From Ianthella basta (taxonomy: Eukaryota > Porifera > Demospongiae > Verongiida > Ianthellidae): a stretch of DNA of 64,000 nucleotides. The notes below the pieces were generated by a model. It was not told where the DNA came from. It saw nothing but the letters and a program-made list of their open reading frames with translations, and searched no databases. The stretch spans positions 5,530,017 to 5,594,016 of the forward strand of contig OZ025881.1 of the NCBI GenBank assembly GCA_964019415.1. The letters run 5' to 3'. Of this stretch, positions 25,272-31,200 are shown piece by piece (the stretch's first letter is position 1; every line of letters starts with the position of its first letter). The translations under genes and the position numbers were made by a program.

Positions 25272-28200
25272 CTACTTGCTGCTGGCAGCCGCACATCTAA
25301 CTTGCTCAAACAACTTTGGGAGGTGCTTGCTTTTGGGCTTCAGTGCCTATTGAACGAAGTAGTTGAGACAAGGGGCATTTCTGTAACACACTCACACACA
25401 CACACACACACACGCACACACACACACAAGTACGTATTAAGTTGTCTCCAGCATGTGGTGTCCTGTACAGTGTACAGTGCCCTGTACAGTGTACAGTGCC
25501 CTGTACAGTGTACAGTGCCCTGTGCAGTGTACAGTGCCCTGTGCAGTGTACAGTGCCCTGTGCAGTGTACAGTGCCCTGTGCAGTGTACAGTGCCCTGTG
25601 CAGTGTACAGTGCCCTGTGCAGTGTACAGTGTCCTGTGCAGTGTACAGTGTCCTGTGCAGTGTACAGTGCCCTGTGCAGTGTACAGTGCCCTGTACAGTG
25701 TATAGTGTCCTGTACAGTGTACAGTGCCCTGTACAGTGTACAGTGCCCTGTGCAGTGTACAGTGCCCTGTACAGTGTATAGTGTCCTGTACAGTGTATAG
25801 TGCCCTGTGCAGTGTACAGTGTACAGTGTATAGTGCCCTGTACAGTGTACAGTGCCCTGTACAGTGTACAGTGCCCTGTGCAGTGTACAGTGCCATAGTA
25901 CAGTACAGTGCATATATATTGAGATTCGATAATGGCGGCCAAAATGGATTGGAGATTGAGAGACTGAGACAGAGATTGACATTTGACGAGAATGCCGAAC
26001 TGCTGTCGGTGCAACGGCAGCAGCGGCAGATGTATTAATTGTATATGCGCTCGATCAGGAAGGAAATGTGACGATTGTCTTCCTCTCAGACGAGGTCGCT
26101 GTGAAAACGCTGACCAGACAGATCAGACACCAGTAGACGATCAAACGCGGGATGAGGGTAACCACTCAGTGCCAGAAAGAAACAGCACAAGTGATCACAG
26201 ACCGAGTGAACTGAGTGAACCAGACCCAGAAGTGCCTCCTGAGCACGACCCACGATCTTACCCTCAAGATCTGCCAACCTTTGAGAAAATCGGCCCGCCC
26301 AACTACCAATGGGGGAATGTAGATGGGGAAACTATTACTCAGCGCATCAATCAGGCATACAACGAGATTGTTCACTGGAGACGCAACCTCTTTAAGGTTC
26401 CATCGGGGAAAGCTGGCACCCAGTTCGTTGAAGAACTAGCCCGCCTCCTCACTGCGTATGCAGAAGGAACCCCCTTGCAGAACATTGCTATGAAGGCTGT
26501 AATGACAATGCCAGCTCTGCTACTGCAGAAGCCACATCCGAAATCTAGAAGTACAGACCACTCTGAATGCCTGAAAAAGAGGTTTGCCCTATGGTCCAAG
26601 GGAGACATTGAGAGTTTGCTGCAAGAAGGGAAAACCATCCAATTGCGCTTAGGGAGGCTCCAGAAACCAAAAGGCGAGGGGGAGCTTGCAAGGTCATTCG
26701 CAAAGTGTCTACACGTAGGCAATGTGAAGGCGGCAGTGAAACTGATCACAGAGGAGGAGAACTCTGGCTCCCTACCTTTGAGCAGCATGCAGCCAGATGG
26801 GAGATCTGTGAAGGAACACCTGCTCCAGAAACATCCCCCCAGGCAAGCAGCTTCAGCAGATGCCATTAGCCAGGACGAGCCTCTTCCCACTCCCCACCCA
26901 GTTATGTTTGATGCAATTGATGGCAAAATGGTAAGATCCATTAGCCAGAAGATGACAGGGTCGGCAGGTCCATCTGGAATGGACTCGGCTGGGTGGAGAA
27001 GAGCTTGTTCATCATTTGCCAAAGCATCAGGTGAGCTCTGTACAGCAGTAGCCAGGGTTACAAAAAGATTGTGTTCCAGCTATGTAGATCCTGAAGGAAT
27101 CACCAGTCTTGTAGCTTGTCGCCTGATTGTGTTGGATAAGTCCCCAGGAGTGAGACCGATTGGAATTGGGGAGGTGCTGAGGAGAATTATTGGTAAAGCA
27201 GTTCTTGCGATAACATCTGAAGACATATGCAGGTCAGTGGGAGCATTACAGCTATGTGTTGGTCATATTAGTGGGTGCGAGGCAGGTGTTCATGCAATGA
27301 AAGCCATCAATGAAGATGCCAACACAGAAGCAGTGCTACTGATAGACGCCTCCAATGCCTTTAACTCACTAAATCGGGAAGCAGCTTTGAGGAATGCACA
27401 CATTCTGTGCCCAGCAATTGCTCCAATATTGACCAACACTTATCGGGATGATCCTGCATTGTTCATTGATGGGGAAACTATCCTTTCTCAGGAGGGGACC
27501 ACGCAAGGGGACCCATTAGCAATGTCAATGTACGCTATAGGCACCCTTCCATTGATTTGCAGGCTTCCAAAAGAGGTCAACCATGTATGGTTTGCGGATG
27601 ACGCGACAGCGGGGGGGAAGGTAGATGACCTCCGGGCATGGTGGGATGACATCCAAGATCATGGCCCTCAGTTTGGCTACATACCAAATGCCAACAAGTG
27701 CTGGCTTATTGTAAAGCAAAGTGCTTTGCAATGGGCAGAAGACAGTTTCAGAGGAACAGGAGTTAACATCTCAGTGGAAGGACAGAAGCATCTAGGAGCA
27801 CCCCTTGGAACCCGAAACTTTGCAGAAACGTTTGTCAGGAACAAAGTACAGAAATGGCTGAACGAAGTCAAGTGTCTGTCCACTATAGCCAAAACCCAAC
27901 CTCAAGCAGCATACGCAGCATTGACCCATGGTGTCATGGCAAGGTGGACATATCTGATGAGACTGGTGCCTGACATAGATGAGTTGTTCCAACCCCTAGA
28001 AGATGTTATCAGATACGAACTGCTGCCAGAAATAACTGGCAGACATGCACTAAGTGAGGATGAGAGGAAACTGATTGCTTTACCAGTGAGAGACGGTGGA
28101 CTGGGCATCCCCATTCCAACATCAAACACCACGAAGGAGTTTGAAGCATCCTCCACTATCACAGCACCCCTGGTGAATCTGATCTGTAACCAACAGCATG

Positions 28201-31200
28201 ATGATGAAGTTGGAATGACACAGAAGCAGTTGAGGAGCGAGGTGAGTAGAAAGCGAAGGCTTGAACAGCAAGATGAAGCATTGAGGCTGAAGCAGTCACT
28301 GCCCTCCAATCTCCAGAGAGCAATGGAGCTGGCCTCAGAGAAGGGAGCCTCAGCGTGGTTGACCTCTCTCCCAATCAAAGAGCACGGGTTCACACTACAC
28401 AAACAAGCCTTCAGAGATGCCCTCTGCCTGCGCTACGGATGGAAGCCTCTCAGACTCCCAGCTCACTGCTCATGTGGTGCACCCTTTACAACAGAACACG
28501 CCTTCAGCTGCTCAAAGGGAGCATTTCCATCCATCAGACATGACAGAATCAGAGACATCACTGCCCAGCTCTTAACGGAGACATGCCATAATGTAGAAGT
28601 TGAGCCACACCTCCAAGCACTGGCCGGCGAAACTTTCAATGAGAGAACAGCCAACACAGAGGACAATGCCAGACTTGATGTCAAAGCACAAGGTTTCTGG
28701 GGAAGCAATAGGGAGATCGCATTCTTTGATGTAAGGGTGTTTAACCCATACGCGTCTTCTAATTGCTCAGGAACAATAGCAGCAAGTTACAGACGACATG
28801 AAAAGGAGAAAAGAAGGGCATATGAAAGAAGAGTGATAGAAGTTGAGCATGCTTCATTTACCCCTATTGTTCTCTCCACGACTGGTGGCTGGGGTCCCTC
28901 AGCATCCATCGTGTTCAAGAGGCTGGCTTCCATGATCTCAGAGAAACACTCTTCCTCGTACAGCTCCACAATGAAGATGATCCGCAGCAAAGTCGCCTTC
29001 TCGCTCATTGATTCGGCAATCATGTGCTTGAGAGGAGCAAGATCGTCTTTCCACAGACCCGTGAAAGCACTCAACCTGATCGACAACCCCATTGACCTTA
29101 TGGTCAACGAGGGGCAGATCTAACTACATGATGGACTAATTGCAGTCTAATATTATTGCTTGCAAAACACAATGACCATGTCATGATCTTTATACCTTGC
29201 ATTATACTGTAAATATGTAATCTGTAGGCAGTGCGCATGTGTGCCTACTTTGCTTTATTAATAATGTTCTACCTCCCCTTTAAAAAAAAAAAAAAAAAAA
29301 AAGCAGTGTACAGTGCCCTGTACAGTGTATAGTGTCCTGTACAGTGTATAGTGCCCTGTACAGTGTATAGTGCCCTGTACAGTGTATAGTGCCCTGTACA
29401 GTGTATAGTGCCCTGTGCAGTGTACAGTGTACAGTGTACAGTGTCCTGTACAGTGTACAGTGTACACTGTACACTGTACACTGGCCAATTACCTTCAGTT
29501 CTGCAATAAGGGCCAGTGCTGTCGTGTGCTGCTTGCCATTGATGGCCGCCTGGATTGCAGTGAGAATGACCACCTGCCTCTGAGCCCAGCTCCCACCGAT
29601 GTTCACCAGGGAGTATCGCAGGGGGAGCAGTAGGGAAAGCACCTGATGCAGACACAACATGATGATGTCATCTACTAACACCCAGCCATTAAAAAACTGA
29701 TGTACAATGCTACATAAGGTAAATACATACAAATGTGCAGTATATCAGCTCACTACAGCACTGGAGCTCTTGAGACAATACTACAAGACTAGAAGTGGTT
29801 GGTGGTATGTATAAAGCACTGAGGACATATAGCTGTGGGGCACTGTCACAGGAGAGGCAGGAGAGGGGAAATTACCCACACAACCACATTTGGACCCAGG
29901 ACATATGCTCTACCACAGAGCCACTGAACAAGACAGTGACCATTCACCCTCTTTCACTGGCAATGAGCTGACTGCCAAGTTGCAGTATAAATCCATACAC
30001 ACCTTCAAGGCTTGTATGAAGTGTGACAAGGCCTCAGTGGGTGAGCTGCATGCAGCAGCTTCTTCTAAACTCACATGCATGTGGTGATGGTGGTCAATGT
30101 ATACACACATGGACACGTGAACACGTGGACACACACACACACACACGCGCGTGCACACACACACACACACACACACACACACCACATGGACATACATACG
30201 CACACAATACACAAGTCAACCACACACTGCCAACAGTGCTACAGTGCACACACCTCATCATACTGTTCTTTACTGTATGCCACAAGAGCCTGGCACACGG
30301 GGACACCAAGCTGTAGAGAGGGAGGGTGCACACAAACACATGAGCTGGTCGACCTGGGACACTGCATGTCCAGTGTAGGGAAGGTGTTCACAGGAAAATG
30401 TACTTTGGACAAGTCATGGTTTGCTGGACTATACAACTTCTGATAGTTGGTCAAAGGTTGTGGCCCACTTTAAGCATCTTTCAAGCATTAAAATGAGCTG
30501 CCCACACCTTTCCTGTGATTCCTCCAAGGTAGTTGTCCTTGGCTGCCTCAGAGTAGTCCTGCACTGACTAATGGGACAGAAAGTGGAACGAGAGGAAACA
30601 GAGACACAGCCAAGTTTGCTCTGACTGTGCAGTGCAACACCAACAGCAAAGAACAAGGAACGTCTGCACACCTTCACCACTCGCCCCACACCTCCATCCC
30701 ACCACCCCCACCCCACACCCTCACTCCACCACTCGCACCCCACACACTCACTCCACCACTCACACCCCACACCTTCACTCCACCACTCACACCCCTCGCC
30801 CTCACTCCACCACTCACACCCCTCGCCCTCACTCCACCACTCACACCCCACACCCTCACTCCACTCACACCCCACATCCTCACTCCACCACTCACCCCAC
30901 ACCCTCACTCCACCACTCACCCCACACCCTCACTCCACCACTCACACCCCACACCCTCACTCCACCACTCACACCCCACACCCTCACTCCACTCACACCC
31001 CACATCCTCACTCCACCACTCACCCCACACCCTCACTCCACCACTCACACCACACCTTCACTCCACCACTCACACCCCACACACTCACTCCACCACTCAC
31101 ACCCCACACCTTCACTCCACCACTCACACCCCACACCCTCACTCCACCACTCACACCCCACACCCTCACTACACCACTCACACCCCACACCCTCACTCCA

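Follow-up and report, generated by a model that had tools for sequence, protein, structure and literature searches.

The 64,000-nucleotide stretch of the Ianthella basta genome analysed here (the window; contig OZ025881.1, positions 5,530,017 to 5,594,016) contains a 3408-bp retrotransposon, at positions 25895-29302, inside a 19-bp minisatellite array. In our judgement, this is very probably a recent copy, with its frame intact, of a dispersed R2-group long interspersed nuclear element (LINE) which has no fixed target and came to lie in the array by chance. Across the family, we observed target-site duplications (TSDs) above control, 5′ truncation, unrelated flanks, a fit between 3′ tags and the tree of copies, and intact frames in several copies.

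Insertion in the 19-bp array

The insert lies between two copies of a 15-bp TSD, as read in the sequence, and array units with a period of 19 bp adjoin the element on either side according to Tandem Repeats Finder (TRF). When the insert and one TSD copy were removed, the flanks rejoined as an in-phase array. These junctions agree to the base with the limits 25880..29317 given in the original prediction; between them lie a single open reading frame (ORF) and an A21 tail. Its report of array units on both sides (TRF period 19 at 25458-25904 and 29304-29480) was also confirmed, as was its use of copy A of a duplicated segment as an uninvaded empty-site comparison, the array there being uninterrupted at 17774-18539. 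The features of the element and its surroundings are the following:

17774-18539, no strand: 19-bp array without insertion, copy A of the duplicated segment (TRF, empty-site comparison)
25458-25904, no strand: 19-bp minisatellite, 5′ part, copy B; the TRF limits reach slightly into the insert
25880-25894, + strand: 5′ copy of the 15-bp TSD (sequence; empty site)
25895-25919, + strand: 25 nt private to the window copy (5′ filler or upstream-initiated sequence), not in the closest copy, L039
25920-25991, + strand: 5′ untranslated region (UTR); older full-length copies share a start at about 25932-25935
25992-29123, + strand: single ORF, 1043 aa, no stop
26001-26102, + strand: Cys-rich stretch at the N-terminus without a Pfam match; residues 4-37 include 9 Cys
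27144-27737, + strand: reverse transcriptase (RT) core (RVT_1; FADD), from Pfam and an R2 profile match
28467-28511, + strand: zinc-knuckle-like C-x1-C-x7-H-x3-C, residues 826-840
28677-28823, + strand: putative restriction-like endonuclease (RLE) motifs D896, D913 and K940-R-R-A-Y944, from motif alignment
29124-29281, + strand: 3′ UTR, 158 bp; contains AATAAT (29260-29265), followed by the tag GTTCTACCTCCCCTTT (29266-29281)
29282-29302, + strand: A21 tail
29303-29317, + strand: 3′ copy of the TSD (sequence; empty site)
29304-29480, no strand: 19-bp minisatellite, 3′ part, copy B (TRF)

The 15-bp TSD of the window copy was read by eye; the TSD script gave a 7-bp match at this place because the site itself is repetitive. 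With regard to age, alignment of the element body with that of L039, the nearest copy, shows 2 differences over 3314 sites, whereas identity between the copies of the duplicated segment is 78-91% in the eight blastn pieces that do not touch the 19-bp array, and up to 97% in ungapped stretches of 157-300 nt. We therefore infer that the insertion is more recent than the segment duplication. It is highly improbable that the array grew around the element, or that the two met by recombination, instead of the element entering an existing array by target-primed reverse transcription (TPRT). Arrays do expand, as is generally known, but the TSD, the A-tail, the in-phase empty site and the uninterrupted array in the sister duplicate all speak against such a history. 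At the end of the array (29412-29487), the units lie in inverted orientation, giving self-complementary segments with many sub-threshold matches to microRNA models. The surrounding gene is putatively TTC38, the label given in the original prediction.

Dispersed copies, target sites and 3′ tags

A search of the genome with the 3′ UTR returned at least 40 places, the window included, and both the 3′ and the 5′ junctions were read at all 40 (one locus, L074, enters masked letters at its 3′ end). The flanks of these 40 copies were unrelated to one another. Thirteen copies start at element position 36 or before, none between 37 and 1005, and the other 27 at 1006 or beyond. From 44 scored of 2079 first-look candidates, the full 1043 residues without a stop were found at 99-100% identity in seven places, including the window, and at 94% in an eighth.

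TSDs of 8-15 bp were called at 22 of the 40 places by a script followed by correction by eye. The script had proposed repeats at 22 places, some of just 6-8 bp; upon inspection, those of the window copy and L042 were replaced, L044, L050 and L068 were added, and L066, L069 and L071 were dropped. At the three added loci, 13-65 nt of filler separate the TSD from the element, and the filler in L044 (31 nt) and L068 (65 nt) suggests template jumps. Repeats of at least 8 bp were found by the script in 18 of the 40 true flank pairs; when the flanks were mispaired 200 times as a control, the mean was 0.23 and the maximum 2. Repeats of at least 10 bp were found in 12 of the 40 true pairs and in none of the mispaired ones. 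A-runs of six or more were present in 14 of the 22 copies with a TSD. For one of these 22, L059, the TSD string was not found upstream, and this copy was left out of the motif and hairpin tests described below, which thus covered 21 sites.

The original prediction had proposed a preference for the 19-bp minisatellite as a new target niche, and the tabulation of flanks which it put forward as a check was run on the 40 places. The result was the one it had itself named as speaking against the idea, i.e., unrelated flanks: the window copy alone sits in the 19-bp array, and none of the other 39 sites does. Genome-wide, the exact 19-mer has 25 matches, none of them outside the two arrays of the window. 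Near-matches were searched with three unit variants and up to two mismatches in the flanks of the 40 loci, 124,394 bases in total; they numbered 33 in the window flanks, one, isolated, in those of L070, and none at the other 38 loci. Neither did the 21 sites share a motif: no column was informative, and the maximum of 0.37 bit (A at -1) was matched by 88 of 500 shuffles, and by 104 of 500 in a repeat run. Although the window copy, with its 15-bp TSD, does lie in the array, and microsatellites have been described as targets of related elements (PMC4640811; PMC3636483), sequence specificity for the minisatellite is ruled out by the flanks and the absent shared motif, and targeting of the unit by its sequence is hardly credible.

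The tails of the 22 copies with a TSD carry lineage-specific, partly nested tags between AATAAT and the A-run. Most older copies have GGTTT-like ends after AATAAT, younger copies have GTTCTAGGG or GTTCTATGT followed by further letters, and the youngest have GTTCTACC followed by further letters, while the tag of the window copy is common to it and L039. When five tag classes were placed on a tree of 12 full-length copies, four changes were needed, which is the minimum; the shuffled mean was 6.2, and 32 of 2000 shuffles equalled the observed value. The CC and GGG tag classes are set apart by two sites in the body of the element. With regard to the start of alignment, four CC copies begin at element position 21-32 and the eight other full-length copies at 33-36; the window copy, also of the CC class, defines position 1 and has its private letters upstream of 25920. 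Read most simply, the tags suggest that the 3′ ends of the RNA arise in the flank of the donor, with each master copy stamping its offspring, in a form of short serial 3′ transduction. Some private ends, but not all shared prefixes, could instead be due to untemplated additions by the RT or to the use of alternative cleavage sites within a single donor flank. A donor of the longest tag was not found in the assembly, where its 15-mer occurs in L040 alone.

A comparable pattern was seen in a sister family at 57% identity, represented by L078 (1181 bp of sequence used), which was searched with a query of 401 positions consisting of 3′ UTR and flank. This query returned 39 places, of which only its own matched past position 175, and the other 38 shared no flank. 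The matches of these 38 end at 129-132 in 15 cases, at 135-145 in 11, at 170-175 in seven, and earlier in five; these clusters, known from the match ends alone, look like the same nested 3′ ends. One sister-family copy (G000:C10:6292474-6295560) is contained in an open frame of 2697 aa, which exceeds the ORF of the element itself in length.

Relatives outside the genome were not confirmed in a viral collection or in a first bacterial scan. A contig binned in a Flavobacteriales metagenome-assembled genome (L079; JAESST010000262.1) does hold a single-ORF element with an RT and a nuclease-like part, at 25% identity over 521 aligned positions, and is probably eukaryotic contamination of the bin. 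A literature search for sponge RLE LINEs gave no title on such a family among those listed.

The encoded protein and R2-group affinity

In agreement with the original prediction of a complete single-ORF element with an RT, the 1043-residue frame contains RVT_1 at residues 385-582 (E 4.9e-9), the sole Pfam family above the cut-off. Searched against solved structures, a three-sequence profile made from the window protein, the C-terminal part of L078 and L079 retrieved R2 retrotransposon proteins first (E 1.7e-9) and human L1 ORF2p next (E 0.0052). The single window protein in full length retrieved nothing up to E 1, and the RT piece as a single sequence found R2 at just E 0.009.

The candidate nuclease was compared with R2 through its motifs. 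In LINE nucleases, a variant of the PD-(D/E)xK fold, the catalytic K lies in a KX2KY motif (PMC5678591), and Asp896, Asp913, Lys940 and Tyr944 of the window protein occur in the order described there. Aligned by hhalign with the RLE stretch of R2, the window RLE gave a collinear but weak match (E 1.5e-4, probability 51%). In this match, K940 and Y944 stand opposite K and Y of the R2 sequence KVRKY, and the window protein has A in place of the second K of KX2KY. D896 and D913 fall on R2 aspartates both here and in the three-sequence profile, and are common to L078 and L079; in the profile alignment, the K/Y stretch is shifted with respect to R2, and this second domain scores just 1.5 bits. Motifs, collinearity and the weak profile match thus make a PD-(D/E)xK nuclease at residues 880-950 likely, and lend support to the C-terminal nuclease that had been placed at about 880-930.

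The architecture is that of the R2 group, i.e., a single ORF, a central RT and a C-terminal nuclease (the last from motifs and the weak profile match), and sequence comparison supports the assignment of the element to the R2-group LINEs of the RLE type. The designation "R2-like" is justified for the R2 group, on the profile match, but finds no support for the R2 clade. There is no single 28S ribosomal DNA (rDNA) site among the 40 junctions with their unrelated flanks, and no Rfam family reached its gathering score in the window, so that a ribozyme at the 5′ end was rejected as a candidate; a permissive Rfam scan of 25700-29500 gave 61 sub-threshold matches, mainly to microRNA models on the array, and no ribozyme. 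The N-terminal C2H2 finger(s) and Myb domain of the R2 clade were likewise not found: residues 1-57 hold nine Cys and no His, hence no C2H2 finger, and Pfam detected neither a finger nor a Myb domain in the whole protein or in residues 1-60, although a very divergent one would escape. Full-length copies start near ATGGCGGCCAAAATGGCG (25932-25960 in the window, and the same place elsewhere), and the window copy is without the CG of AAAATGGCG. We take ATGGCGGCCAAAATGGCG at the element start to resemble a YY1 site, as in human L1.

Among known systems, the R2 clade (R2Bm, R2Tg) resembles the window family in the match of the RT region and in the RLE order D, D, K, Y. The window family differs from it in having no single rDNA target, no His or C2H2 finger in residues 1-57, and an A-run in 14 of 22 copies with a TSD. 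R2-group LINEs described as lacking target specificity include HERO (HEROFr, HEROTn, HERODr), YURECi and EhRLE3 (PMC3636483; PMC4640811). The window family is likened to the HERO clade and other non-specific members by description, in that it combines an R2-group RT and a putative RLE with no fixed target. Similarly, BLAG 1-6 are reported as non-site-specific R2-like elements of Blattella germanica and, like the window family, have one ORF, a length of 3.2-3.7 kb, unique 3′ environments and 5′ ends varying among subfamilies (PMC7650587). The variation reported for BLAG lies at the 5′ end and its N-termini bear zinc fingers, whereas the window family has its clearest turnover at the 3′ end and a 9-Cys stretch at the N-terminus. 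Dong and Togen, RLE LINEs targeting microsatellites, are R2-group relatives which illustrate that repeats can host insertions (PMC4640811; PMC3636483); both are described as repeat-specific, and no specificity was found for the window family.

Tandem arrays, mechanism and meaning

Several findings weigh against a chance landing of a non-specific R2-group LINE. The window TSD lies within a repeat, and its register is not independently fixed; no TSD was called for 18 of the 40 copies; and the tag classes were set by the author after viewing the tails, with three of the five having a single member. As for the nuclease, its piece alone, as a single sequence or as a profile, retrieved no R2 protein among PDB sequences, and a single-sequence structure model, the kind of check proposed at the outset, was uninformative (mean predicted local distance difference test score, pLDDT, 33.7), with no confident fold. 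The spacing of the zinc knuckle, CX1CX7HX3C, is shorter than the CX2-3CX7-8HX4C published for LINEs before the nuclease (PMC5678591), with Cys and His kept. Lastly, three, perhaps four, of the 40 sites lie in tandem arrays, compared with 2.2% of flank bases. Among the 13 youngest copies, three do so, with P 0.0025 if the flank rate is taken as the expectation and 0.12 if the window rate is; without the window copy the count is two of 12, with P 0.027 and 0.32, respectively.

These last figures bear on a preference for tandem arrays whatever their sequence, which chromatin, DNA structure or tolerance might bring about. They come from a TRF run on the joined flanks of the insertion sites, with a background (period at least 7) of 2.2% in flank sequence lying 150 nt or more from the junctions and of 9.6% in the window; the youngest set comprises copies of at least 99% identity, with L069 left out. 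Three copies have an array across the insertion site, each of a different sequence: the window copy with a 19-bp unit, L041 with 26 units of 30 bp, and L042 with six units of 21 bp. A 111-bp double at the site in L055 is the perhaps-fourth case, and a 41-bp repeat is found no more than 30 bp from the site of L065; the 13-bp doubles at L045 and L046 are the TSDs themselves. Over all 40 copies, however, finding at least three in arrays has a P of 0.056 if the flank rate applies and of 0.75 if the window rate does. Furthermore, the window copy was chosen for being in an array, and without it the count falls to two of 39 (P 0.21 and 0.90, respectively). A hairpin version of this preference, with palindromic or cruciform targets, was prompted by L039, L044 and L050 and failed when tested on the 21 sites, with P 0.23 for the summed stem and 0.26 for the folding energy. 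We thus regard a preference for arrays of any kind as unlikely, and read the array excess as chance, with a weak lead to a bias among young copies. We would give similarly little credence to an RLE LINE which, while free of sequence specificity, is array-biased and has its 3′ end renewed from donor flanks at each master-copy step.

For the preferred reading of a dispersed LINE with no fixed target, we infer the catalytic steps, the formation of RNA 3′ ends and current mobility. By homology to R2, the ORF protein would bind its own mRNA, the C-terminal nuclease would nick a single strand of the chromosome, and the nick would serve the RT as primer, i.e., TPRT. Staggered cleavage of the second strand would then yield the 8-15-bp TSDs, and incomplete cDNAs the 5′-truncated copies. 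The mRNA would extend into donor-flanking DNA and end between a few and about 20 nt beyond AATAAT, leaving short lineage tags that are mostly followed by an A-run.

The window copy is an ordinary young insertion of a new family, and the element is of a known type. The proposed new target niche is thereby removed. What is left of use is the family itself, which is young, includes copies with intact frames, has inserted at unrelated sites and marks its lineages by 3′ tags of its own, and which would suit the study of the loss of target specificity in R2-group nucleases and of the making of mRNA 3′ ends outside rDNA.

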